The position numbers and the translations under genes were made by a program. Below the pieces are notes generated by a model. That model was given only the letters and a program-made list of their open reading frames with translations, searched no databases and was not told where the DNA came from. Below are positions 1 through 24,555 of a stretch of DNA of 28,512 bases, piece after piece. Source of the stretch: Amoeboaphelidium occidentale (taxonomy: Eukaryota; Aphelidiomycota; Aphelidea); contig JALGPX010000050.1 in NCBI GenBank assembly GCA_023515795.1, forward strand, positions 44,996 through 73,507. Direction: 5' to 3'. Within the stretch, counting starts at the first letter, position 1; each line of letters opens with the position of its first letter.

Positions 1-2182
1 AAACTTTGTTCAGTGGGTCGATGCTAGGAGTACACGCGTTTTCAACGATAACCGGATTGACTCTTACCTTCCAATTAGGTGATTGTTATTGATGCAGTCT
101 TATTTTTTTGTAGAAAACATCGGCTGCATATCAATTGCATCGTGGGATAATGGTGTAATAACTGGTCATCAAGACAGTTTGGTCAGAGCGCGAGATTTCA
201 ATTCTCTTGCTATTGTTGGCATATTCCAAGGTCACCAGGATTCAGTCAGATCTCTTACTTTCGATAGTACAGGGACACTTTATACTTCAAGTAGTGATGG
301 CTCTGTAAAAAGGTGGAATATGGCTTCGAGGAAGGTTGCATTTTCCTTTGAGAACAGAAATAGTTCAGTCACAGTACTAACTGCAAGCGGAAATTATTTA
401 TATATTGGTGTAAAAAGCGGAGTTGTCAATCGCTTTGACATCAGGAATGCAATTCTGGATCGCTCTTCTTCTTCACACAGTGGTTTTATTACTTCTTTCG
501 TCCATGTTAATGGCAGCCTTTATTCAGCAGGAAACGATGGAACTATTGTAAAATTGCCATCAAACCGAAAAGAAGAGCCTGTTGTAATTTTCTCCTCTTC
601 ACCTTTCCCTATTCGAAGTTTGACTTATTCCAAAGTCGAATTCGCTTTCATTCAAGGAGAAAATCAGATTTCATTCCTACCCTTTAATAGCGATGCAGAC
701 GTCTCGAGAACGATCATATCACCAACCCCAATTCTTTGTATAGCTGCTTACCAGTCTTTTGTGATATCTGGATCTAAATCTGGAATCATTTTTGTTTGGA
801 ATATGGATAAGCTCAAACTGGAATACGAGCTGAGAGGCCACACATCTCAGGTCAATATGGTTCTTATTGATCAGAGCTCCCTGTATTCTGCGTCGGATGA
901 TAAGACAATTATTATTTGGTCTTTAGAGGAAAGATCAATCGTGAGAACATTGCAGCGATTATCCGCTAGCGCATTAGGTCATCTTGGCCCTGTCAATGCG
1001 ATTTCTGTTTGCAACGGCTTACTATTCTCTGTTGGTTCAGATGTGGCTACTAGACGATGGAACATCCAGACGGGGAGACACGAAGGTGTGTATTTTGGCT
1101 TCTCAAAACCTGTTACTACTGTAATTTGCCACAACAGAACGGTAATTGCTGGTAGTGAAGATTTTTCCGTTTTGCTTTACAAACCAAATATTCCCGAGGA
1201 GAAAATTCTTTCCACGTCCATAAAGACTCAGTGGCCAACTACAAATCGTGCAAGGAATACAAGAGTTGTGCGAAAAGCACAGACAATCACATCTGAAGCT
1301 TTATCTTCTTTAGTACCGATCTTTGGAGCGGCTGCAGGAGTTGTTGCTTTGCTTCTAATTGTCGTTGTGGTTTACTTGTTTGTTAAGGCAAAGTCTAAAC
1401 AGTCCGCTTCTCCTAGAGATAGATCTACAGAAAACGAAGCGAATGAAACAACTACGGATCTCCAAACCGTTATCAACTCCGTTATGGGCATATCCCGCCA
1501 TGCTGAGTATCTTTTACCCGTTAGTATAATCGCAAGAGTCAAGAAGCTTACAGCTGGTGGTGGCGGCGAAGTTTTTATTGCGAAAGTGATGGACCCTGTT
1601 TTATCAAAGAAATACGGAGACACTGTTATTCAGAAAGTAGTTTTCGTGAACCAAAAGTCCACGGAAGAGTCATTCTTTCAAGAGGTCGGTATAATGATTA
1701 TGCTTTCATCATTTCCACACTTTTGTGAAATAATTGGATATACCGATAAACCTTTGTCGATGATACTTAAGTACTACCCTGATGGATCATTGACAGAGTG
1801 GTTGCAGAATAATTTTTACGGCGAAAAGATTGTGGTCAAATGCACGAAGGAGATTTCCAAAGCATTAAGTGTAATGCACTCTCATTACTTAGCGCATTGT
1901 GATATTAAGACTCAGAATGTGTTGGTTAGAGTCGATAATGGTATTCCGTCCTGTTATCTAACTGATTTCGGCATTACTCAAGTGTTATCTGATAAAATTT
2001 TGGCATCTGCAATGTTCCAAGTTGTTAACTTAAGGGGTCTATCTATACCATATGCTTCACCAGAGGCATTCATCAACTTTAGATCAAAAAATTACGCAAA
2101 TATCAACTTCAAGAAGTATGATATCTATTCCCTTGGTATGATTCTTTATGAAGTCATGGCCAAACGCATACCATGGAAGTGA
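1..2182 (+). CDS. WD40-propeller receptor-like kinase, copy 1 (5' partial)
   Basis: The 3' part of a membrane receptor kinase; its start lies outside the window. Bases 1-78 are the end of one exon, the intron is 79-113 (35 bp, phase 1), and the last exon is 114-2182, giving 714 residues in the window. In order these are ten WD40-like repeats, a basic linker (1244-1279), one hydrophobic membrane helix (about 1310-1387), a conserved juxtamembrane block (1448-1513) and a TKL-like kinase domain. Visible kinase elements are the loop AGGGGEVF, Lys in VIQK (1634), helix-C Glu (1682), HCDIKTQN with catalytic Asp at 1901, DFG (1964), SPE (2057-2065) and helix-F Asp (2120). The protein ends in IPWK, so the lobe after subdomain IX is absent. 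The next family member starts 84 bp downstream. The reading is supported by co-linear alignment with the other copies. Ligand and substrate are unknown. Confidence 0.9.
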
Positions 2183-2188
2183 TTTTAT

Positions 2189-2194
2189 AATAAA
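2189..2194 (+). terminator. AATAAA poly(A) signal of copy 1
   Basis: AATAAA begins 6 bases after the TGA stop of the first receptor kinase gene. It leaves no room for an additional 3' exon before the next gene. Confidence 0.6.
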
Positions 2195-5200: not shown

Positions 5201-6004
5201 AGAAATTCAAAAGCCAGACGAGATATCTCTCCAGGGCAAAAAACTTCATCCGAGGAAACAAGCCAGGCTGTTACTGACTTGCAAACAGTTGTAAACTCGG
5301 TCATTGGCATTTCAAAACATGCAGCATTTCTTGTAGAAAAGTGGGCAATTGCAAGAGATAAGAAAATTGCGGCCGGTGGTGGAGGGGAGTTGTATCTTGC
5401 AAAAATCATGGATCCTGCGCTAAAAAGAAAGGCCAGAGAAGAAACTGTAATACAAAAAGTTGTGTTTTTGAAAAACAAGATTAACGAAGAGGCATTCTTC
5501 CAAGAAGTTGGGATCATGATTATGCTTTCTTCATTCCCGTGCTTTTGCAGCATAATAGCTTATACGGAAGATCCATTTTCAATGATTTTAAAATACTACC
5601 CCGAAGGAGCATTGCATGAATGGTTGAGATCCAACAAGTATAGCAAAAAAGTTGCTGTTGCAATTTTGTCAGATACTGCTTCTGCTCTGAAAATCATGCA
5701 TTCATACTACTTGGCACATTGTGATCTAAAATCCAAGAATATCTTGGTTGAGTTAGTTAACGGACAACCGTCGTTTAGATTGACAGACTTTGGTATCACC
5801 CAAATTCTATCTGAAAAGGTTATGGACTCGAGATCATTCAAAATAATCAATCTAAGAGGCTTGTCTGTGGACTACGCATCACCCGAAGCGTTTAGAAATT
5901 TCAGAACCTCAAAGTATGTTCGTGTTGATTTCAAAATGTATGATATTTACTCCTACGGCTGTTTAGTGAAAGAAGTTCTAACAAAAACATCTCCGTGGGG
6001 CTAA
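2267..6004 (+). CDS. WD40-propeller receptor-like kinase, copy 2
   Basis: A complete single-pass receptor kinase of 1202 residues. Exons are 2267-2723, 2759-3490, 3525-3764, 3794-3904 and 3936-6004. The introns are 35, 34, 29 and 31 bp, all phase 1, and the last has a GC-AG boundary (AG/GCAAGT). The summed exons are an exact multiple of three. The start ATG opens a signal peptide (MKQQLLALVLLL). WD40-like repeats fill roughly residues 35-880. A basic linker lies at 886-899, the membrane helix at about 910-934 and the kinase from about 990. Kinase residues are GGGG near 994, Lys1021, helix-C Glu1037, HCDLKSKN with Asp1110 and Asn1115, DFG Asp1131, SPE Glu1164 and helix-F Asp1183. Pro-Trp is at 1200-1201, one residue from the end. 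HRD Arg is Cys. It is likely a surface sensor signalling through Ser/Thr phosphorylation; no ligand is inferred. Confidence 0.92.
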
Positions 6005-6118: not shown

Positions 6119-9100
6119 ATGAAAAACAACAGAGCTTTTTTGGCTATTATCTTAACAGTCATTTTGACCCTATCTAAAGCAATTGTGCAAGAGAAGAGCT
6201 TCATCCTGAAGAATACCACACCAAGCGTCTTTTGCATAGCTTTGTACCAAAACTCCTTGCTACTGACCTCGTTCTATGATATTGTACAGAAGGACATTGA
6301 AACTGGTAAAACACAAAGGACCTTAAGGGGACATGAGAACATTATCTTTTCGTTTGTGGTGACTTCAGATTCCAAGTTGATCAGCTCAGCCATTGATGAT
6401 TCTGTTGTTCTTTGGGACTTGCTCACAGGCTCAGTGTTGCAACGGATCAAGTTACAACAGAAGCAAACGATTATTTCAACCATCTCAGTTCAAGATGATC
6501 AAGTTTTTACAGGTGGTTTTGATAGCCTGGTAAGGCAGATCGATTTAACGGAAGGCAGAGTAGTTAAAACGTTTGGTACATTATCCATTATCATTAGCTG
6601 ACTTTTCTAGCTTTCGGTGACATAATTACAAGCATCGTGGTCAAGGGGGACTTTATTTACGTTGCTACAGCGCAGCAAGGCAACTCAATACAAAAACGGC
6701 GCATTTCCACATCTGAAACTTCTCTTTTCTTCACTGGACACACAGATACCGTTAGTTGCCTGGTCTTACGAGAAGAAACGTTATTTTCCGGCTCAAATGA
6801 TAAGACTATAATCTTTTGGAATGTCGTCAACGGCCAGAGCATAAGGATTCTGGTTGGTCACGCTGGCAGCGTAACAGCATTGACTATCTTAGGCAAGGAT
6901 TTGTACTCTGGGTCGAATGATGGTATGGTCATCAAATGGGATATTGCAAGCGGCGATAAGTTGATCGATTTTCCGAGGCGCCACACGAACGTGGTTAAAA
7001 GTCTTGCATGTAACCAGAATAGTCTTTTCTCTGGATCGGACGATAAATCGGTAATACGATGGAACAAGTTAAATGGTTCTCCTGAATACTTTTACTTAAG
7101 TCAAGAAATTAGAATAAGGAGCATGTTTTTGTGGAAAAATTTCATAATTGGTGGAAGAGACGATTCTGATATTCAACTTGTTGATGCTTCTATTCTCAAG
7201 TTGGAACCAATAGCATTGATGAAAGGCCATATTTCTAGCGTACTGAGTCTTGTCCCGTATGAGAATGAACTCTTCTCTGGAAGCTTGGATACTACAATCA
7301 AACTATGGAGCTTGACGACTTTGACAGTTCAGACTGAATTAAGAGGCAATCTTTCGTTTTCGGCTCATAATTTTAGGACACACTGGTGCTGTAAGAACAC
7401 TTTCGGTTGATAATTTGTACTTATTCTCCGGCGGGGACGATCTTATTGTCAGACAATGGACAAAATCCACATGGTTCATTACGGAGTTCATAGGGCATGT
7501 CGGTCAGGTTAACAATTTACAACTTGAAAATATCAATCTTTTCTCTGGATCTCAAGATAAAGATGTAAGAGTATGGGATACAAGATCAGGATTTAATTTC
7601 CAAACAGTTACTGGTAAATAATTTTCTTAGAAAGACTTACTTCAAGCAACAAATATTGTCAATGTCATACACTTACTTCAGAATTCGTTCATTGTAGGAA
7701 CCAACATTGGGCTGCAATCATTTTCCAAGACAAATGGCGAGAGCTTAATTGTCTACGCTGGTAAATCCCTCTTTTTTTAACGCTGACCTTTAGAATTGAC
7801 TTCCTGTACCTCATTGGCTGCAACAGACCTGGTCCTTTTTAGTGGTCATGATAATAATTTGATCTACACCAGAGAATTCAATCTGCTGTTTGCTTTGACG
7901 ACGTACTTGAGCCATAATGATGTGATCACATCTCTCCACATGGATTCTACAGGAGTGCTATATTCTGCAAGTCTAGACGGGCAGATCCTCAAATGGGATA
8001 CCAAATTAAGAAAAGTAGCTTTTTCATTTGAAGACAGAAGTAGGGCTGTTACTTCCTTGGCTGCAGTCCAAAATTACCTTGTAGTCGGTCTTCAGAGTGG
8101 ATATATCAACATTTTTAACATCGAAGACACTATCCTTATCGATACTGTTTGGCTTCACAACAAATCAGTTGACTCTCTTGCAGCAGTTGGCGATCAAGTG
8201 TTTTCGTGCAGTTCGGATGGAAATTTGAAGTCTTTCAATCCTTTTGAGAGGTTTAACCAAGAAGTTGTTTCTGATCATGGAAAAATCCCCATTCGAGGAC
8301 TAATACAGCATGATAATAACTTGCTTTACATCAAAGGAGACTATGATATTATTATATCCTCCTCAAATGCTTCCTCTCATGTTCTTAGAACCATAAGTTC
8401 TTCTTACCCTGTTTTTTGCATCACTTCAACGACGGACAAGCTTTTTGCAGCATCTCTCTCGGGAGAAATATTCGCTTGGGATCTCAAATCTGGACGCTTT
8501 GAATTCAGCTTAGTCGGCCATCTTGCAGTAGTAAACTCCTTGCTGGTGGCGGATGGATCGTTGTTTTCAGCATCGGACGATAAGTCAATAATTCAATGGT
8601 CGCTGGAGAGACGCGATATTGTGAGAACATACAAAAGGTATTCGGCCGCTGCACTGGGTCATACTGGCCCTGTTAATGCGATTACTTTTTGCTCTGGACT
8701 TTTACTATCTGTCGGAAAAGATGACACGCTTAGAGTTTGGAACATTGACACTGGAAACCAAGTGGATCAATTTCGATACTTTAAGTCTGCTACAGCTGTT
8801 ATTTGTCATAACAATATTTCATACGCAGGTAGTGAGGATTTCTCCGTATTAATGTTTGATTTGGAGAAAATCAATGTGCAAAGTGGACCAGAAACGTCCA
8901 GAATTAAAACAATAAGTACCAAAAAGAGGAAACGGTCCAAAAATGTTCGAGCAACCAGGGAAAGCGAAGACTTATCTCAACGCTGGATCGTTCTGATTAT
9001 TGCTAGCTCGTCAGTATTAGTAATACTCATTACTGGTTTTGTTTTCTACGTATGGAGGTCCAAAATAGCATCCAAGTCCGCCTCGCCTACTGTTAGCAGT

Positions 9101-9853
9101 ACAGCAGATTCAACTTTTACAGAAATGGATCTTCAAACTGTCGTTAATTCTGTAATGGGTATTTCAAAACACGCGGAGTATATTATTGACAATTCAGTGG
9201 TTGCAAAAGTAAAGAAGATTGCAACTGGCGGAGGCGGAGATCTTTTTCTGTGCAAAGTTATGGATCCGCGTCTTGTTAAGACAACTGGTGACTTTGTGGT
9301 TCAAAAGTTGGTGTTTGTTAACAACAAGTTAAAGGAAGAGGCTTTTTATCAGGAGGTTGGAATTATGGTTATGCTTTCGTCATTCCCACACTTTTGCAAA
9401 ATTCTTGGCTACACTGAGAAACCGTTATCGATTATTATGCGCTATTACTTAGAAGGATCTCTATTCGATTGGATCAGAAACAGAAGCCTTAGCAGGTCAA
9501 TCGCAATTCAAATTCTACTGGAAGTGTCTAGAGCATTGAAAGTAATGCATTCTAATTATCTGGCTCATTGTGATTTAAAGTCCCAAAATATTCTTGTTGA
9601 GATCGTGAATGGCATTCCAGCTTTCCGTTTGACGGATTTCGGCATCACAGAAATCCTTTCGGATAGAATAATCGCATCGAAGGCTTTTCGTGTTGTCAAT
9701 TTGCGTGGTCTATCAATTCTATATTCTTCACCAGAAGCCTTCGTTTGTTACAAAACGAAACATTACGTAGGTGTTGATTTTAAGAAGTTTGATGTCTACT
9801 CTCTTGCATGCCTGTCGTATGAGGTTCTGACACAAAAATCGCCATGGAACTGA
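6119..9853 (+). CDS. WD40-propeller receptor-like kinase, copy 3
   Basis: A complete paralogue of 1200 residues. Exons are 6119-6575, 6611-7345, 7377-7613, 7647-7760 and 7794-9853; introns are 35, 31 (GC-AG), 33 and 33 bp, all phase 1. The acceptor at 7646 was chosen over nearer AGs because it keeps the phase and gives exactly the repeat length seen in the paralogues. A signal peptide follows the first ATG. About 21 WD40-like repeats can be counted, many with GH...W spacing (for example GHTDTVSCLV near 6740). The linker KKRKRSKNVRATR precedes the membrane helix (about residues 912-935). Kinase residues are GGGG 993-996, Lys1019, Glu1035, HCDLKSQN with Asp1108, DFG Asp1129, SPE Glu1162 and helix-F Asp1181. 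The protein ends in SPWN. The tail converges on the minus-strand kelch receptor 46 bp away. Confidence 0.92.
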
Positions 9854-9856
9854 ATT

Positions 9857-9862
9857 AATAAA
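9857..9862 (+). terminator. AATAAA poly(A) signal of copy 3
   Basis: AATAAA starts 3 bases after the TGA stop of copy 3, inside the 46-bp gap to the convergent kelch gene. No clear AATAAA was seen for the minus-strand gene in this gap. Confidence 0.55.
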
Positions 9863-9899
9863 ACACTACTAAAACGCATTGTCAATGCCTTCAATTAAT

Positions 9900-12644
9900 C
9901 TATTTGAATTTTGACCACGGTGTTCGTCTGGAAATCATCTCGTAAAGTAAGGATGCCCAAGAGTAAACATCTCCCGCTTTGAAGGTATCCGCACTATCGC
10001 TAAAAACAGTTTTAGCTCTTTGTCTTTTAAATGTCTCAGGTGAAGCATAGGCAAACGATAATCCTCTAATGTTTGAAACATTGAAACCGTTAACCACCAA
10101 ACTCATAGAAAGAACTTGAGTGATACCGAAATCAGTCAGAACACAAAATGCAAAACCATCCTTATCAGTATCAATTAAAACATTAGCACTCTTGATGTCT
10201 GAATGCGACAAATCGTGCTGATGAAGAGCACTTATTCCAGAAGCAATATCGGAGATGAAATGCAGCATGATTCTTTTTGTGATTCTTTTCTCGTTCTTTA
10301 TGAATTTATCCAATGGTCCAAGGCGATAATGCTTCATAAGGATACTCAGAGGCTCTGATCTACAATAACCAATTATCTTTGCAATGTTTTTATGGTTCTT
10401 CAGCATTGCCATAATGCTCAACTCTTGTTCAAACAGTTTAGCTTGTCTAGCGTTCAAGTTCTGGTTACTTGAATTGGAAATCAATCGCTTTACAACTATG
10501 ACATTTCCAAAAATACTGGTCTTTTCATCCAAAGCATCGGCCAGGTACACCTCACCTCCCCCTCCTTGTGAAAGTTTTGACGTTACTCGAAAGCTTGTAT
10601 CTGGTACTTCCATGTAAGCTGGGACCGAAAGCACTTCCTGGCTAAAGGAAACAAGAGTGGCTGTCTCTGTTGAATACGAATCAGGTCTAGCAGGAGTTAC
10701 CTTATAGACCGGCGGAACAGATGGGAGGTAGATTGCTGACTTGAATTGAGCGTAATCACGTCTTTGCCAATATCTTTTATAAAAGAAATAGGCTGCCAAT
10801 AATATTAAAAGTAGTGCGAAACCAGCGCCACCAATTATTATATAGATTAAAGTAGACAAATCTAGGAGATTTTCTAATGTCACTGAATTGTCCGGACTAA
10901 CGCTAGGATTAACCGATCGAGAAATCAATGCTCTTCTTGAGGATCTGTTGTCGTCAACATCACTAACAGAAGTTTTGTTAGAGTAAGTAGAACTCGGATG
11001 AAAAGTTGTTAATGCTGATGCAACAGAAGAAGTTATTTGACTCTCATCCCTTATTGCTGAAGTTTGGTATTCCCCAATCCTTGTTTCCGCTGCTGTTGTT
11101 AATATTTCTGTTGATATTGCTTTCTCTGAAGCAGTTGTCGTGGAAGTTTCTTCTAATTTCGTAGTTGGTGTAGAAACAGGCGGTACCTCTGAGGCAGTTG
11201 AAGTAGAAGAAAATTCAGACGTAATTTCGGTTGTGCTCGTAGTTTGTGATGTTGTGGTTGTGCTACTTGTAGATCCCACGACTAGTTCTGGTGCAGCAAA
11301 TTGAAGTTTCCAAAGATCGCCATTATCTTGCCCGCCGAAAATGTATGACGCGTTCATGCTACTAAAAAATGCAGAACCACCTCTCCATCCTGGTCGATTT
11401 TGACTGCTTTGTACACGATAGGTCCCGTATTTTGGTGCAATCTTGGAGCAAGTATCATTAATGACAAGGTCCCATGTAAAGGTTTGAACATCAAACAGCC
11501 ACTCGTCTGAACATTCATAGAAATCAATATTGGCATCCGTATAATCACCTCCTTGAAGCAAAATCTGATTCCTTCCCGCATCGTACAACCAATTTGGAGA
11601 TATCTTTGCTGCTGGATAAGCATAGCGAGAGTCAACCGTATAATTCCCAGGATCGTATGCATATGGTGACCCTCCAACAAATGCCCACATACCAGCTGTG
11701 ATATTGTACATCCAAGTCTCTGATGTGCAAGCCCAGGTAGTATCCATAGATCCTCTAATTGGGAGAGGTCCACAACCTCCTGTAACAAAAAGGAGGTTGT
11801 CATGTGTTACAATCATGGATGCTGTTCTTCGTAAACCTGGCTTATTTCCACTACTCAATGCACCATAAGACTCGATTATTGAGAACTCATTGGTGCTTGA
11901 GCTCCACAGGGCAGTAAATCGGTTGTTCGACACGCGATACCTCCAAAGAGTATTGGAAGTATATCCAGAGCCGTCGCCACCAAATATGTAAAGAAGTTTA
12001 TCATTATGGCTGTATGCAAATGCAGCGACTTGAAGACCGCCGATATTTGTAGTGTCAGACTCTTCCATGGGAACAAATACAGGCATCTCATCAAGCTCTG
12101 TTGTTCCCCCTATCCACGTAAACATGTTTGTATCAACATCATAAGACCAAAGGTCATTCAAATAACCAAAGTAGGGGTAAATTGTTTTTCCTATGCCTCC
12201 AATTATGAAGAACTTTCTCAAATCAGAATCATAGAAGTATATAAACTCCCCACGAGAACCCGGATAAATACTACTGTTTGTATCTCCAATAGAAGTATAA
12301 ACTCCAACTGCTTCTACCTGATTGCTTCCGTGAATCCATGTCCAAGCAGAGGAAGCATCTCTTGAGAAATCGCATTTCCACAAATCATTAGTTCTATCAT
12401 ACCCCAATTCATAGTCTGAGTATGTATAACCCCCAAATACATATGCAGCGTTTTTTAGATCATCAACGAACATGCCTGAGTAATGCCGTGACCCGACTTT
12501 ATTTGATGCTAGATAGACACCTCTCGATGGCGGATACACTGCGCCTGTTCTATAAGTTTCACCTCCCCACCAGGTCCAATTGTACGGGATAGACTGTGTA
12601 AAGACTGAGGATGCTAATAGTGGCGCCAACAGTTGAATGATCAT
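9900..12644 (-). CDS. Kelch-propeller receptor-like kinase
   Basis: A single-exon gene for a 914-residue type I membrane protein. A signal peptide (about residues 1-16) is followed by six or so kelch-type repeats with the GG doublet and downstream Trp (GG at about 71, 149, 222, 289, 365 and 437). A Thr/Ser-rich stalk covers about 457-590 and the membrane helix about 598-621. The cytoplasmic kinase has the loop SQGGGGEVY (692-700), Lys719, helix-C Glu741, HSDIKSAN with Asp816 and Asn821, DFG Asp838, SPE Glu870 and helix-F Asp892. It ends four residues after Pro909-Trp910. The kinase is clearly related to that of the WD40 array, including the missing subdomains X-XI, but the ectodomain is a different propeller family. 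Kelch/galactose-oxidase-like ectodomains often bind glycans or proteins; binding here is only inferred. HRD is HSD, a non-RD kinase. Confidence 0.92.
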   Translation of the reverse strand: MIIQLLAPLLASSVFTQSIPYNWTWWGGETYRTGAVYPPSRGVYLASNKVGSRHYSGMFVDDLKNAAYVFGGYTYSDYELGYDRTNDLWKCDFSRDASSAWTWIHGSNQVEAVGVYTSIGDTNSSIYPGSRGEFIYFYDSDLRKFFIIGGIGKTIYPYFGYLNDLWSYDVDTNMFTWIGGTTELDEMPVFVPMEESDTTNIGGLQVAAFAYSHNDKLLYIFGGDGSGYTSNTLWRYRVSNNRFTALWSSSTNEFSIIESYGALSSGNKPGLRRTASMIVTHDNLLFVTGGCGPLPIRGSMDTTWACTSETWMYNITAGMWAFVGGSPYAYDPGNYTVDSRYAYPAAKISPNWLYDAGRNQILLQGGDYTDANIDFYECSDEWLFDVQTFTWDLVINDTCSKIAPKYGTYRVQSSQNRPGWRGGSAFFSSMNASYIFGGQDNGDLWKLQFAAPELVVGSTSSTTTTSQTTSTTEITSEFSSTSTASEVPPVSTPTTKLEETSTTTASEKAISTEILTTAAETRIGEYQTSAIRDESQITSSVASALTTFHPSSTYSNKTSVSDVDDNRSSRRALISRSVNPSVSPDNSVTLENLLDLSTLIYIIIGGAGFALLLILLAAYFFYKRYWQRRDYAQFKSAIYLPSVPPVYKVTPARPDSYSTETATLVSFSQEVLSVPAYMEVPDTSFRVTSKLSQGGGGEVYLADALDEKTSIFGNVIVVKRLISNSSNQNLNARQAKLFEQELSIMAMLKNHKNIAKIIGYCRSEPLSILMKHYRLGPLDKFIKNEKRITKRIMLHFISDIASGISALHQHDLSHSDIKSANVLIDTDKDGFAFCVLTDFGITQVLSMSLVVNGFNVSNIRGLSFAYASPETFKRQRAKTVFSDSADTFKAGDVYSWASLLYEMISRRTPWSKFK

Positions 12645-12838
12645 TTGTTGAAAGTACCATTCGAAGCGCTAATCAGTAAGCTTGCAAATCATGACACCAG
12701 CGGATTGGTTGAAATGTAAACTGAGCATAACTAAAACTTTGCTTGTTTAGCATGTTCAGGATGCATTATGAAAATATGGTTACAATTGAGTGTTCAAGGA
12801 CTGTGCTATAATATATCGGAAAAGATAAATTGCTAATG

Positions 12839-12845: not shown

Positions 12846-13328
12846 TCATGATCCACGACCGCCTCCATTGCCATATCCACGACGAGGTTGCGGCGGTGGT
12901 GGAGGTGGGCGACGTGGTGAAGGTGGACGAGGAGGTGGTGGAGGAGGCATGCGCGGTGGAGGTGGGGGTACATGTGGTGGCGAAGTTGTCATTGGTGGTG
13001 GCGGAGGCACAACAGTAGAAGTTTCAGGCCGTGACAGGGTGCTGCTCGTTGGTTGAGGAGGTGGAGTACTGCTTGTTTGAGTTGGTGGAACTGGTGGAAC
13101 CAAAGTTGTTTCTTGTGCTGGATATGATATAGATACAGTTGTTGTCGGACCTACTGGTGGAAGAGGCGTCATGTACGTGACAGCTGGTGGAGATGGAATA
13201 TGTGTCGACAGATCAGGAAGAGCAGACGTTTTTCGTGCTGAACCAGAACAAGGCGCAGCTCCATTCGCGTCGGGAGCAGCAAATGTTGTCAGTGAAAGCA
13301 AAGTTGAAACAATCAGGATGATCTTCAT
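12846..13328 (-). CDS. Small secreted proline-rich protein
   Basis: A 160-residue open frame from an ATG. The first 18 or so residues (MKIILIVSTLLSLTTFAA) form a typical signal peptide. The rest is low complexity: a Thr/Ser/Pro-rich middle, then runs of three to seven prolines broken by Arg, Met, Ser and His from about residue 106, and a Gly/Arg-rich tail (GYGNGGGRGS). No membrane helix or catalytic domain is visible. Composition fits an extracellular matrix, wall or mucin-like protein, or a flexible ligand; this is inference. It lies upstream of, and on the same strand as, the kelch receptor gene. The low-complexity sequence makes homology hard to establish, but the signal peptide, the stop and the adjacent poly(A) signal favour a real gene. 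Confidence 0.7.
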   Translation of the reverse strand: MKIILIVSTLLSLTTFAAPDANGAAPCSGSARKTSALPDLSTHIPSPPAVTYMTPLPPVGPTTTVSISYPAQETTLVPPVPPTQTSSTPPPQPTSSTLSRPETSTVVPPPPPMTTSPPHVPPPPPRMPPPPPPRPPSPRRPPPPPPQPRRGYGNGGGRGS

Positions 13329-14268
13329 AATACAATGTCGATTGCCAAAACAATAGATTTAGAAATGACATTGACAGTTACGGCCGCTTTTTATGCGATG
13401 CTTGTGTTAGTCGCACATCTTTTTATTGGCTAGGGAGTTACACAATTTAGATCTCATGTCGCACAATTACATGAATCCACGTTACACAGGTTTGACAGGT
13501 GATTTAGAAGAAAACCTGTACGATTTTCCTTAAAATAATCACCGTTTATGAAAACAAAATTAAGCTCTTCTTTTTGCTCATTATAGCGGCAAAATTCTAT
13601 CACCTCTTGAACATAACGTTGAAACAAAGGGTTCAAAATGCAGATGATAGAGGTGTGCTCATTAATGGACCATTCAAGATACACTTCATTAAGGTGAAAT
13701 TGGAACGACCACGTTTGAAGGCACTAGAGTAATGCTAAATAAAGTGATTATCATTGTTTTCAGAGTGATTATATCTCGGTTTAAAACGTCGCAATATTCC
13801 TTATTGGCAACGGCTCGCACTTTCATGCTAAGAGATAATTGAGTTAGTCAAAGCCCTATCATTCTTTTTTTGTAGAAAATGTTTCATAGCAATGTATGCG
13901 CGTTATTATGACAAATAGTTATTTCAAGCTTTATCCCGTTGCTGCCGACAAGACTCACGAAAAGAAATTTGATTATAACTTTTCATCACATTCCATCTGG
14001 GCTAGGGCCCCGATGTGTAGCAGATTCTCTTGATGATGTCTTTGTATAGTGTAAGTCAATGCCTGAATGAGCGGTCTTCGCCATGAGCCCAGCAAGGAAA
14101 TTTGCGTACCTATCAACAATGATATTGCTGTATTTCAAGGTATATTGATTTTTATCAACGGAGCTATGTTTCATGAAAAGAGCTGTCAGACAAGCCGATG
14201 TTTGAAATTCTTTGAGAGTACATTCTAGTTGTTTCCCTGCGATATCCGTTTGAAAAACAGCCTTTTTT
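13329..14268. other. Divergent intergenic region with one doubtful minus-strand frame
   Basis: This 940-bp stretch separates the minus-strand proline-rich gene from the plus-strand receptor copy 4 and must hold both promoters. No repeat, RNA gene or mobile element was recognised. The only coding hint is the minus-strand frame at 13454-13723, listed separately. A longer minus frame at 13986-14651 overlaps exon 1 of copy 4 and looks like an antisense shadow. Confidence 0.5.
13454..13723 (-). CDS. Doubtful hypothetical frame, possible 3' exon or gene relic
   Basis: An open frame of 89 residues that ends at TGA (13454-13456) and has no ATG at its start. It is bounded upstream by TTACTCTAG, which is both an in-frame stop and a good-looking 3' splice site for this genome. 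The composition is protein-like (for example EVYLEWSINEHTSIICILN), but no family was recognised. It could be the last exon of a small gene whose first exon was not found, or a decayed remnant. Low confidence. Confidence 0.25.
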   Translation of the reverse strand, partial: CLQTWSFQFHLNEVYLEWSINEHTSIICILNPLFQRYVQEVIEFCRYNEQKEELNFVFINGDYFKENRTGFLLNHLSNLCNVDSCNCAT

Positions 14269-17200: not shown

Positions 17201-18012
17201 CATTATTCTATTGTTCATCGAAACCAAGTATTAAGCAGATTGAGAAACATGGGTTGTTTATACAGGAATTATCAGAAATTACTACTGATTTGGAAACGGT
17301 TGTTAACACCGTTGTCGGCTTATCGAAACATGCTGCTTACATGGTGGCGAACTCAAACGTTGCAACTATTAAGAAGCTTGCATCTGGTGGTGGAGGAGAG
17401 ATATTTTTGGCTCGAGTTATGAACGCCTTTTTAACAGAAAAGACCGGAAATCTGGTGATACAGAAGATAGTTTTCATCAAGAACTCCAAATCAGAGGAAG
17501 CTTTCTACCAAGAAGTCGGGATAATGATCATGTTATCTCCGTTTCCGAACTTCTGTCGTATAATCGGACTAACAGAAAAACCTGCGTCGATGATCTTGCA
17601 GTATTATCCTGACGGTTCATTGCAAAGCTGGATTCAAGGAAACAGGTATGACCGAGGTGCTATCGCAAAAATTTCAAAAGAAATTTCTTCTGCTTTGAAA
17701 ATTATGCATTCGCATTACTTGGCTCACTGTGATATTAAACCTCAGAATGTTCTGATTGAAATTGTGGAGGGAATTCCCACATGTTTTGTAACCGATTTCG
17801 GTATTACTCAAGTACTATCTGATAAGATCCTGGCATCTCGTGATTTTCAAGTGACTAATCTTAGGGGATTATCAGTACCTTATGCTGCCCCAGAAGCATT
17901 TTCCTGTTTCATAAAAAGAGAGTTTTTTGGAGTTGACTTGAAGAAATTTGATATTTACTCGTTCGCTTGTGTAGTACTAGAACTTCTAACTAGAAAGATT
18001 CCGTGGTGCTGA
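14269..18012 (+). CDS. WD40-propeller receptor-like kinase, copy 4
   Basis: A complete paralogue of 1202 residues. Exons are 14269-14728, 14764-15498, 15534-15773, 15804-15914 and 15950-18012; introns are 35, 35, 30 and 35 bp, all phase 1. The start could be any of three Met codons at 14269, 14272 or 14284, all opening the same signal peptide (ISLLSLLSLVSLVS). About 21 WD40-like repeats are followed by the basic linker TKTKRGVRRKIVSR, a membrane helix (about residues 913-937) and the kinase domain. Key residues are Lys1021, Glu1037, HCDIKPQN with Asp1110, DFG Asp1131, APE Glu1164 and helix-F Asp1183; the protein ends in IPWC. The 30-bp third intron has no stop and keeps frame, so unspliced RNA would add ten residues at a repeat junction. 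The paralogues lack those residues, so it was treated as an intron. Confidence 0.92.
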
Positions 18013-20006: not shown

Positions 20007-23000
20007 ATGAGACTTCAGGTTTTGTATGGATGTATGATCATGCTATGCTCTTTCATAGTAGGAAGTTTAGAACATGAAAAGAGCTTCTTTCTTCAAGATG
20101 GAGCTTCTAATGTGCTTGCCATTGGTATTTACAGAGACTCACTGCTGGTGACTGCATCAAACGATGTTGTTCAGAAGGACATTGAAACTGGAATCCTCCA
20201 AAGAACCTTTAGAGCTCATGATAAAACTGTGTATTCCTTCGTTGTTACAAATGATTCCAGGATGATATCATCTGGTTATGATGACATGATGGTCGTTTGG
20301 GATCTTGTTACAGGATCGATTCTCAAAAGGATTTGGTTAAGAGTACCAGATACAAGGATAGAGAGCTTAGCTGTAAAGAATAATATTGTCAATGCTGGTG
20401 GCCTTGATAACAAAGTAAGACAAGTTGATTTGGTCAGTGGAAGGATCATCAGAACAATAGGTACTTCCATAACTTTGCGATAGCTTAATAGTTTTGTAGA
20501 GCTCGATGGTTACGTATACAGCATTGCCGTTGGTAATGAGCACTTCTTTGTTGGAAAGCAAACCTCTCCGAATGTTTTAAGATACTTGATTCAAGGAGGA
20601 ACTGCAAGAATGAGCTTGGATGGTCATACCAACACTGTCTTCACACTCTTCTGGTCTAACGATATCCTTCTATCGGGATCTGCTGACAAGAATGTTATTT
20701 GCTGGAATGCAAGGAGCGGAAATATCATAAGAATCTTAACAGGCCACTCTGACGGTATTTACGCAGTTGGTCTGTTTGAAGGATTTGTTTATTCAGCAGG
20801 ATTCAATCGAATTGTATTCAAGTGGAATATCGATAATGGAGAGATTGTAAAGAAGTTTGATGATCTCCATGCTATTGTGATCAAGTGTTTCGCGTACAGA
20901 CCATCAGAACTTTTTACAGGCTCTATTGATACTACAGTGATAAGATGGAATGCAATATCTGGTGAATCAATATTCCGTTATATAATGAGAATTAAGAAAT
21001 TAAGGGCCGTTGCTGCATGGAAGAACTACGTCATGAGTGCAGGTGAAGATATTGAAATCAATATTTGGGATGTAGCAATCGATAGCATTGAGCCTATTGC
21101 GGTGATAGTCGATCATATTCTTGCTATTAACTGCCTCTCAGTTTATGACGATTTTCTCTATTCGGGAAGCTCTGACACAACGGTGAAGCAATGGAACCTC
21201 ACTCAATTTGCTCTGAATAAGATTTATGAGGGATATCCTCTAACAATCATTTCTCTAACAGCAGACCAATCTTATGTTTATGCATCAGGATTTGCGAGAC
21301 TTATCTATCAATGGAATTCTTCATCGAGTGTACTAGCCGGCCGTTTTGAGGGCCACAGTGGTGATGTGAGTACCTTGAAACTTAGCAGCAGTTTGCTTTT
21401 CTCTGGATCGAATGATCAAACTGTCAGAGTTTGGAATGTACACTCGAAACAAACTGAGAAAGTTTTTAATTGTAAGCCTTTACCAGATACTAACCTTCGG
21501 TAGCGGTTGATCCTATTAATGATATTATAATTGACGGAGACTTACTTGTTTCAGCCACGGTTGATGGCATAGAATCATTTTCACTTGCTTCCGGCGAATC
21601 TTTGGTTTATCTAGAAGGTTTTGATAATTTAAAATTTGAAGCTCATTTTTAGAGTTCATTGTCTGCGGCTGCGTTGTATCTCTGCGAAATCGCTTGTTCA
21701 CCGGTCATCCAGACGGTATCATCAGAGTTAGAGATTTGAGCACTCTAACAGTCCTTGAATTATATCAAGGTCATTCGGATTTCGTGTTTGCACTTTGCTT
21801 TGATTCCTCATTTAACCTTTACTCAACAGGGTTCGATGGGAGCATCAAAAAGTGGAACATGGCAACAAGAAGGGTTGCGTATTCTTTTGAGAGTCGCTTC
21901 TCTTCGGTAACCACTCTGGCCGCTGATGGGCCGATCCTGCTGGTAGGTTTAAGAGGCGGTAGTATTAACGCCTACAACATCAATGATGCCTCAGCTTTAT
22001 ATACCATTTCGATTAATAAGCAGGCTGTTTCATCATTATTGGCTTTAAATGGATCAGTTTACGGAACAGGCCTGGACGGGCTTTTGGTGAAATTCCCGGC
22101 GTTCCTTCTGAGAAATATCTTTACAGTTTACAGCTCTAAAGATGAACAATTACGAAGTGTCTTATTTAATAGCCTTTATTTGGTTGTGTTATTAGGCGAA
22201 AGCAAAGCTTTATTTTTCTCAAATGACCAAGTTGTGAAGACTGTTGATTTGCAAATAGCTTTGATTTGTATGACTTCAACCGAAAGTTTCCTTTTGGGAG
22301 GTTCGAGATCTGGAGCAATTTACTCTTGGAACATGGATACTTTTAAATTGGAATTTGAGTTGAAAGGTCATTTAGCTCAGGTTAATGATATTCTTGTTGT
22401 TGGACAACGGCTTTTCTCGGGTTCAGATGATAAAACTATCATTCAATGGTCTTTAGATGACAGAATCGTTGGAAATGTCTATCAAAGACTTTCCGCAAAT
22501 GCTCTAGGGCATCTTGGCCCTGTGAATGCATTATCATACTGTTACGGAACGCTGTTCACTGCGGGCGCAGATTTGTCTGCTCGTCGATGGAACACTCAAA
22601 CAGGAAGGCATGAAGATGTTTATTTTGGGTTCTCAAAAGCTGTAACCACGGTATTATGTCATAACAGTTCGATTTTCGCCGGGAGCGAGGATTTCGCAGT
22701 GCTAATGTTTCAGCCCTCTTTCAATGATTTATCACAAGATTCAACCATTTCACGGACCCTTATTTCTACTAGAAAAAACAGAGTAACAAGACTCGTTCAA
22801 AGATCTCAGTCTATTGGGTCCAGCGATTCCCCTATTTTGTCGATTATTATTGGGGCAATTGTTTTAATTATTTCATTACTTTCTTTGACTTTCTTTTTAT
22901 TTTATTGGAACTCAACTAACAGAAAACAGGCCCCTGATATTAATTCTAGCTCTGCGTTCGACTCAAGCATAACAACAACCGATTTACGTACGATCGTTAA

Positions 23001-23706
23001 TTCCGTCATGGGAATTTCAAAGCATGCATCTTATTTAATTCCTTCTTCGATGATTGCCGGAATCCGGAAACTAACAAGCGGTGGTGGTGGTGAGCTTTTA
23101 ATCGCTAAAATTATGGATCCAACCTTGCAAAAGAAATTCGGAGACACAGTAATTCAGAAAATTGTATTTATTAGGAACAAAGCGAATGAACAGGCATTCT
23201 TTCAAGAAGTCGGAATTATGATCATGCTGTCTTCTTTTCCTCATTTTTGTCGAATCATTGGATATACTGAGAATCCATTATCCTTAATTTTGAAGCTTTA
23301 CCCTCAAGGTTCTCTTTCAGAATGGTTACACAAACTCCAAGGTGCATCAAAATTTGATGTGAAGCTCTTAAGAGAACTTGCTGAAGCTATACGTATAATG
23401 CACTCGCATTATTTGGCACATTGCGATATTAAGCCTCAAAATGTCTTGATGCAAGTTGATAACAGCGTACCGTCGTGCTACTTGACAGATTTCGGTATTA
23501 CACAAATATTGTCAGACGAGATTCTCGCATCCAAAACTTTCAACATAATCAACTTGAGAGGCCTTTCTGTATTCTATGCGTCGCCCGAGGCTTTTACCAA
23601 TTTTAAATCAAAGATGTATTTGCAGACCGATTTCAAGATGTATGACATTTACTCTTTTGCTTGCGTCATATTCGAAGTTATAACACGCAAGGTTCCATGG
23701 AGTTAA
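20007..23706 (+). CDS. WD40-propeller receptor-like kinase, copy 5
   Basis: A complete paralogue of 1197 residues. Exons are 20007-20460, 20500-21471, 21504-21617 and 21653-23706; introns are 39, 32 and 35 bp, all phase 1. The ATG at 20007 was chosen because it opens a signal peptide (MRLQVLYGCMIMLCSFIVG) aligned with the other copies; an in-frame ATG at 19902 would add 35 unlikely residues. The intron that copies 2, 3 and 4 carry after repeat 9 is absent, and the coding sequence continues without a gap there. After about 21 repeats come the linker RKNRVTRLVQR, a membrane helix (about residues 908-931) and the kinase. Kinase residues are Lys1016, Glu1032, HCDIKPQN with Asp1105, DFG Asp1126, SPE Glu1159 and helix-F Asp1178. 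The protein ends in VPWS. Confidence 0.92.
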
Positions 23707-23745: not shown

Positions 23746-23880
23746 AGAAATTTCTGACCATAGGTTATAATCAAACAGATTCTCTTCTAACTTGTAAGAT
23801 CGCGAATGGAGCTTCATTTCCCAACAATAGACCAGAGTTCTGATATAAACTCGGCACAGAAAGCGCAACTGTAAATCGGC

Positions 23881-24555
23881 TTTCTTATTGAGAGTTCTTC
23901 CATCGCAAAAGTCAAGAAGATTGCTTCTGGTGGTGGCGGAGAGTTGTTCTTATCGAAAATCATGAATCTTTCTTTAGCCGGAAAGGTTGGCGATGCAGTA
24001 ATCCAGAAGATTGTCTATACCAAAAACACAGCCGCGGAAGACGCGTTCTATCAAGAAGTTGGTATTATGATCACTCTGTCAAAATTTCCACATTTCTGTC
24101 AAGTTATCGGATACACAGAGAAGCCTCTTTCCATGATTTTGAAGTATTACTCCGAAGGCTCCTTTTTTGACAGGTTGCATAAGAATACAAGTGGCAAAAC
24201 GATTAGGATTAAGATCTTGAAAGAAATTGCGCAGGCTCTGAATACCATGCATTCCCACTATTTAGCACATTTTTGTCTAAAGTCCCAGAATGTACTTATT
24301 GAAGTTTTTCAGGGTATCCCTTGTTGTTATTTAACAGATTTCGGAATTACACAGATTCTTTCAATGAACATTGTGGCTTCCAAAATGTTCAATGTGACTA
24401 ATTTACGCGGGTTGTCTGTCCATTATGCTTCTCCAGAGGCGTTCACTAATTTCAGGGCAAAGTTTTATGAAAGAGTTGATTTCAAGAAGTATGACATGTA
24501 CTCTTTTGGTTGTGTCTTGTATGAAGTACTGATTAGACGATCCTCATGGTCCTAA
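23881..24555 (+). pseudogene. 5'-truncated receptor-kinase fragment with lost catalytic Asp
   Basis: The frame (open from after TAA at 23872) matches only the kinase end of the array genes. It starts just before the glycine loop (SGGGGELFLSK) and ends at TAA (24553). VIQK Lys, the helix-C QEVGIM segment, LTDFGIT, YASPEAF and the helix-F Asp are all kept. The catalytic-loop HCD is replaced by HFC, so the catalytic Asp is missing, and the terminal Pro-Trp is Ser-Trp. There is no propeller, membrane helix or ATG at the front, and no AATAAA soon after the stop. The best reading is a partial tandem duplicate of the 3' end of an array gene that has lost function. A short expressed pseudokinase started at an internal Met (23962) cannot be excluded, because the frame is intact. 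Confidence 0.8.

Follow-up and report, generated by a model that had tools for sequence, protein, structure and literature searches.

Aphelid receptor kinases with a kinase domain that ends at helix F

Can a protein kinase do without the part of its fold that follows helix F? The question is raised by a 28,512-nucleotide stretch of the genome of Amoeboaphelidium occidentale, hereafter the window (positions 44996–73507 of contig C73, JALGPX010000050.1). A. occidentale is an aphelid (Aphelidiomycota), a group that parasitizes algae, and its genome comprises 11.3 Mb in 204 contigs. Open reading frames and their translations define seven kinase units in the window: copies 1–6 and one copy with a Kelch ectodomain. 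All seven terminate 1–4 residues past the Trp that closes helix F, some 70 residues short of a complete kinase domain; their endings are IPWK, SPWG, SPWN, IPWC, VPWS, SSWS and TPWSKFK, exactly as an earlier reading of the letters alone (the sequence-only reading) had claimed. The Pfam Pkinase match ends at profile position 197–198 of 263 in the four of the seven proteins that were scanned. The same reading had assigned one kinase domain to all copies; this holds for the end point, which the seven have in common, but not for copy 6, which has neither the catalytic Asp nor an ectodomain.

The end point recurs throughout the genome. A comparison of the copy 1 kinase with its own genome gave at least 151 matches, gene pieces and ordinary kinases included, and we inspected 98 kinase 3′ ends drawn from those matches or from the window, each fragment counting as one end. 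Ninety-four lie at or near the helix F point, two of them with unrelated tails; three belong to full-length TKL kinases, and one is interrupted by Ns. Among the first 72 ends, 71 reach the final Trp and stop 1–17 residues on, 52 of them after exactly one residue; at locus L053 one piece is interrupted by assembly Ns, and the second piece is counted among the 71. Six further, divergent ends stop 1–12 residues past the Trp. The 20 most distant ends comprise 12 that stop 1–6 residues past the Trp (or a Phe), L093 and L096, whose unrelated tails are 33 and 35 residues long, L094, L095 and L098 (contigs C123 and C96), which stop at helix F without the PW ending, and L090, L091 and L092. The last three are ordinary TKL kinases, in which the frame continues from the PW/AW position into helices G–I. 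They provide a natural control: where helices G–I exist in this genome, they follow the same point unspliced. Because 94 of the 98 genomic ends stop at or near it, the shared end point is not due to chance. The truncation is thus common to the family, as had been proposed, with the restriction that these three distant relatives are full length. The kinase group on contigs C123 and C96 is 22–30% identical to copy 1.

Three protein searches extended the family to other organisms. We took 83 proteins as members, 21 of them models from the window or genome and 62 from elsewhere. Computed against the fetched loci and the named models of this genome, kinase identity of the 62 outside proteins is 98% or more in none, 90–98% in 19, 70–90% in 18 and below 70% in 25, ten of which sit at 30–40%. 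Seventy-seven of the 83 end 0–11 residues after the motif, and none has helices G–I; the other six are shorter or partial models (P0010, P0031, P0064, P0065, P0066 and P0184). The 77 comprise 76 counted by script and P0063, which the script set aside for its lack of a DFG. P0185, a transcript-based protein of Paraphelidium tribonemae (EukProt Partr_v1, a transcriptome version described in passages of PMC6299283), also ends just past helix F, although its transcript may be incomplete at the 3′ end. Set aside as ordinary kinases were 52 lower-scoring matches among the best 120 of 509 in the first search, 50 of 59 in the second (2 more being repeats), in which the last 70 residues were inspected, and 37 of 46 in the third. 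This call was made by score, name and layout, and the kinase stretch was inspected in a few others. P0070 scores among the ordinary kinases and was retained for its layout, motifs and end; since the end was part of the reason, P0070 and the relatives found with it provide no independent test of the end point.

The family goes unnoticed under other labels, since automatic annotation calls P0010, P0014, P0015 and others 'Bud32' or 'WD40 repeat protein'. Bud32 has a trimmed kinase domain, as the family does, and JGI pipelines tag some family matches with its name; we took these labels as misnaming. Kelch-kinase proteins of similar appearance are known from chytrids; none turned up here. Among the papers listed in literature searches, no title or abstract opening mentions a receptor kinase family without helices G–I; the A. 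occidentale genome paper, reportedly Mikhailov et al. 2022 and outside that search, may mention it. The words 'kinase', 'WD40' and 'kelch' are absent from passages of PMC6299283 and PMC11767097; where passages of PMC8657485, PMC10406608 and PMC5701793 mention kinases, they deal with other subjects.

Up to helix F, the domain retains the features of a protein kinase. Our alignment contains 65 sequences, 51 close intact copies and 14 distant members; six of 57 locus stretches were left out: duplicates of window copies 1 and 5, both instances of copy 6, one stretch nearly identical to another and one that was incomplete. The catalytic Lys, the αC Glu, HxD, Asn and DFG are invariant in all 51 close copies. 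The 14 distant members keep this set except in the Lys column (K in 8, R in 3, T in 2, S in 1), where the alignment is uncertain. The catalytic loop reads HCD in place of HRD. The activation segment is retained and ends in APE, with Pro in 65/65 sequences and Glu in 61/65 (Asp in 4/65); as the sequence-only reading had noted for the window, the Glu persists despite the loss of its Arg partner near helix I. Helix F has its Asp in 65/65 sequences and an aromatic residue plus Ser in 51/51 close copies. Its Gly is relaxed in the close copies (Gly 17, Ala 29, Ser 4, Phe 1); it is present in 8/8 canonical comparison kinases and in 2/3 TKL controls, the third having Ser. Near the APE motif, positions 201 and 217 are basic (R or K in 61/65 each), but that either of them pairs with the APE Glu is a guess. 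The ratio of nonsynonymous to synonymous substitution rates (dN/dS) is about 0.1, from pairs that share sequences and hence are not independent, and 49 copies have open frames of at least 650 codons. In one pair, L011 and L018 on contig C36, the kinases are 87% identical and the ectodomains lie far apart (dN 0.41, dS 2.7), a contrast suggestive of gene conversion, or of domains swapped from one receptor to another.

Structure prediction of the domain alone, a check that the sequence-only reading had proposed, returned a kinase fold for what remains of it (AlphaFold2, copy 1). The model has a juxtamembrane helix at residues 18–25, and residues 1–20 have a predicted local distance difference test score (pLDDT) below 50. 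Foldseek and VIA comparisons covered the best 50 matches and exclude no minimal kinase. A conserved minimal kinase ending after helix F, as envisaged from the letters, is supported by the same end in the genome and in relatives and by the retained APE Glu.

Are the stops true gene ends? Hidden exons had been thought unlikely, and this judgement gains support from the absence of a clear G–I stretch downstream of 72 stops, from an enrichment of poly(A) signals and from the same end in relatives, one of them transcript-derived. A G–I profile search of the three forward frames up to 1.5 kb past the 72 stops (94,918 nt, 1921 pieces) found no clear remnant, the best expectation (E) value being 1.3 with a mixed profile (bacterial and own-genome kinases), 0.66 with a profile built only from three TKL relatives in this genome and 1.7 with both. 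In leave-one-out controls, the mixed profile placed 5/8 below E 0.05, with L006, L007 and L008 at E 1.6–2.7, and the TKL profile placed 3/3 below this value, scored on the G–I stretch itself and not on frame pieces. Since 3/8 controls were missed, the null result speaks for the whole set and not for each copy. AATAAA occurs within 60 nt past the stop in 31/72 cases and in only 2/71 equal-sized stretches 300 nt farther. In the window, where poly(A) signals had been noted close to the stops of copies 1–5, it starts 7, 21, 4, 36 and 34 nt downstream; it is absent within 120 nt after the stop of copy 6. The next gene is indeed near in the two cases that had been pointed out, with an ATG at +85 (copy 1) and +115 (copy 2). 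The stop codons of copy 3 and of the oppositely oriented Kelch copy, whose genes converge, lie 46 bp apart; helices G–I need about 200 bp, so those of neither gene fit. Mean identity across the stop drops from 0.78 to 0.24 in 27 pairs, the downstream value being rough because of free end gaps and not relied on. One pair, L046/L050, is 0.88 alike over 240 nt past the stop and 0.77 alike over the last 300 coding nt.

A variant code was checked because the congener A. protococcarum reads UAA and UAG as Gln, according to passages of PMC6299283 and PMC5304391. The 72 ends carry TGA in 39 cases, TAA in 29 and TAG in 4, and the spread of end points is alike across the codons. Fifty-three long receptor frames, chosen to be without TAA or TAG, span 39,092 codons. 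Frames that long would be impossible if TAA and TAG were common Gln codons, so both appear to act as stops in A. occidentale. Read as Gln, they yield 32 tails of 2–247 residues with no common sequence visible. Because the congener reportedly uses both codons as Gln, the code change would have arisen inside Amoeboaphelidium, or the two species would not be close. TAA or TAG stops stand at 6004, 9900, 23706 and 24555 of the window.

Ahead of the kinase, 78 of 80 family proteins have a hydrophobic segment by hydropathy. The ectodomains vary: precomputed Pfam matches identify WD40 repeats, Kelch repeats (window 9900–12668, P0067, P0122–P0125 and P0183) and IPT/TIG (P0180), and WD40 propellers are found both by Pfam and in a full-length model of copy 3 (pLDDT 73.3, predicted template modelling score 0.58). 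A juxtamembrane motif similar to LSIPAYLE precedes the G-loop in 14/14 distant members. The layout is therefore a propeller or other ectodomain, a single transmembrane helix, a juxtamembrane segment and a kinase up to helix F; the membrane side of each part we infer. Plant receptor-like kinases likewise consist of an ectodomain, a transmembrane segment and a kinase.

We conclude that these genes end at helix F, that the cut is common to the family and its distant relatives, and that the catalytic residues are under purifying selection; structure prediction gives the remaining domain a kinase fold. The proteins probably represent an old class of receptor kinases with a domain lacking helices G, H and I that is probably active and would need a contact in trans, either as a dimer or with a partner. 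As an explanation of the family, we consider it likely that they are aphelid single-pass receptor kinases whose TKL-like domain truly ends at helix F and is active through such a contact. Helices G, H and I would have been lost before the family radiated. The domain would bind ATP and phosphorylate, and ligand binding, perhaps on the algal surface, would cluster the receptors. A trans contact, provided by a second receptor or a partner protein, would then replace helices G–I and the helix I Arg in bracing the APE Glu and the P+1 loop and in substrate docking. Candidate trans surfaces are the juxtamembrane helix, the segment linking APE to helix F, in which basic residues are conserved, and the last part of helix F, which is left exposed together with its PW. 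Such a replacement is possible because the LegK4 dimer interface and the E2-ubiquitin switch of OspG are precedents.

Several points weigh against an active domain that truly ends here. A kinase-like fold with a full catalytic set may nonetheless be inactive. HCD in place of HRD means that activation-loop control differs from that of RD kinases. Two of the 98 ends have an unrelated tail of 33–35 residues. Finally, a lone decayed G–I remnant could escape detection, because three of the eight true controls scored no better than the best downstream noise.

If the domain were instead a pseudokinase or scaffold that binds ATP or nothing at all, the loss of helices G–I would be tolerated, since no substrate docking would be needed. 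The absence of the docking helix G, of the Arg that pairs with the APE Glu elsewhere and, in many copies, of the helix F Gly fits this possibility, as does the missing catalytic Asp in one window copy (copy 6). Pseudokinase families usually lose some catalytic residues. Here, however, the phosphotransfer residues are invariant in all 51 close copies and, but for the uncertainly aligned Lys column (K in 8/14), in the 14 distant members, and dN/dS is about 0.1; we regard a pseudokinase as unlikely. The broken state of copy 6 and of several genomic fragments could suggest that the whole array is degenerating and that its copies are pseudogenes sharing an old truncation. This is hardly credible given the 49 long open frames, the low dN/dS, the invariant catalytic residues and the matching end point of family proteins from elsewhere, and a pseudogene array was rejected on these signs of constraint.

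The missing helices might also be supplied from elsewhere, either within the gene itself, through hidden exons, recoding or read-through of the stop, or by a separate protein. The Gln decoding of UAA and UAG that PMC6299283 and PMC5304391 report for the congener, together with the 29 TAA and 4 TAG ends, would favour read-through, but 39 of 72 ends are TGA at the same point, and the 32 tails obtained with Gln are incoherent. Against hidden exons stand the lack of a clear G–I stretch in any forward frame up to 1.5 kb, the poly(A) signals at the stop, the 46-bp gap to a converging gene and the like end of the transcript-based Paraphelidium protein. The downstream searches, poly(A) signals and stop usage led us to reject hidden exons, read-through and a variant code, and completion within the same gene is highly improbable. 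A split kinase, in which a separate protein consisting only of helices G–H–I completes the domain, can invoke OspG, which has a small C-lobe and is activated by a partner, E2-ubiquitin (passages of PMC13395416). Across the whole genome, however, each of the four listed PF00069 matches that start beyond position 160 shares its open frame with an N-terminal neighbour. The search for a separate G–I protein proposed by the sequence-only reading came up empty among the matches listed (123 of 318 candidates scored), a short piece being a weak target and the generic G–I profile having missed 3/8 controls. We consider a split kinase very unlikely.

How does a receptor kinase that truly ends at helix F compare with known kinases? 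In eukaryotic protein kinases (ePKs), a network beside helix G connects APE, the W-[SA]-x-G motif of helix F and an Arg from the beginning of helix I; passages of PMC1821047 describe helix G and this network as specific to ePKs and pknB relatives. Helices G–H–I and the Arg (R280 of PKA) are absent from the family, whose proteins end at helix F. TKL kinases (RIPK2, B-Raf) and plant receptor-like kinases resemble it in the fold from the G-loop to helix F, the catalytic motifs and APE, and the plant kinases also in the order of ectodomain, transmembrane segment and kinase (sections of PMC2939053). The family departs from both by its lack of helices G–I, including the Arg of helix I, by its HCD loop and by its WD40, Kelch or other ectodomains. 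The bacterial effector kinases OspG, NleH and CtkA have no helices G–H–I and no activation loop, and LegK4 has a displaced helix G with a dimer interface in its place (both from passages of PMC4588518); OspG is switched on by E2-ubiquitin (excerpts of PMC13395416). Compared with OspG and NleH, which share the absence of helices G–H–I (PMC4588518, same passages), the family keeps the activation segment, APE and helix F, looks like a membrane receptor, and is large and eukaryotic. SteC, a Salmonella effector kinase, is unlike the family: a helix named G is kept, whereas APE is not evident and there is no clear DFG motif. RIO kinases have a trimmed domain without an activation/APE loop (passages of PMC5374425), whereas the family has both activation and APE loops, and its Pkinase and PK_Tyr_Ser-Thr matches lie well above the cut-off. 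Bud32 works within the KEOPS complex. What was known, then, are bacterial effectors without helices G–H–I and without an activation loop; the family differs in that the activation segment and APE are kept.

More tentatively, the family could be an ancient, hugely expanded class in which the kinase is active only upon pairing in trans, forming a coincidence switch for algal surfaces. If so, each receptor or partner would lend the brace that helices G–I give in cis elsewhere. This APE-keeping family without helices G–H–I, with 94 genomic ends (fragments included), two aphelid genera and environmental relatives, can serve as a natural experiment on the need for the last three helices of a protein kinase, and on the elements of the fold that catalysis, regulation and substrate docking each depend on. 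A further pointer is to a large receptor-kinase system in close neighbours of the fungi, which lack leucine-rich repeat receptor kinases according to a 2010 survey (passages of PMC2939053).

Table 1 Positions of the kinase units and associated features in the window
Feature	Position	Strand	Basis or remark
Copy 1: 3′ part of WD40 ectodomain, transmembrane helix, juxtamembrane segment, kinase ending IPWK-stop	83..2182	+	Open reading frame, translation, Pfam
Copy 1 transmembrane helix	1313..1384	+	By eye on the sequence; hydropathy on family proteins
Copy 1 juxtamembrane segment and kinase, β1 to helix F, then TGA	1433..2182	+	Alignment, AlphaFold2 model, fold comparison
AATAAA poly(A) signal, start 7 nt past copy 1 stop	2189..2194	+	
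Copy 2 kinase domain, end SPWG-stop	5264..6004	+	AATAAA from 6025
Copy 3 gene with introns (NCBI MP638_003508)	6119..9853	+	
46-bp gap between converging stops of copy 3 (+) and Kelch copy (-)	9854..9899	.	
Kelch-transmembrane-kinase receptor, kinase part 9900-10640, end TPWSKFK-stop	9900..12668	-	
Copy 4 kinase domain, end IPWC-stop	17269..18012	+	AATAAA from 18048
Copy 5 kinase domain, end VPWS-stop	22969..23706	+	AATAAA from 23740
Copy 6 kinase-only fragment without ectodomain, HFC for HCD, end SSWS-stop	23875..24555	+	

Copy 1 is an open frame, and its 5′ exons would sit upstream of the window. Copy 3 runs from a signal-like N-terminus through WD40 propellers and a transmembrane helix to the kinase and its SPWN-stop, with AATAAA from 9857. 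Copy 6 (23875–24555) is probably a dead copy, since its catalytic Asp is gone (HFC in place of HCD) and an ectodomain is missing; it is probably a pseudogene remaining from tandem duplication. Beside the Kelch receptor, at 12846–13358 on the minus strand, lies a small open frame that is rich in proline and opens with a signal-like sequence.
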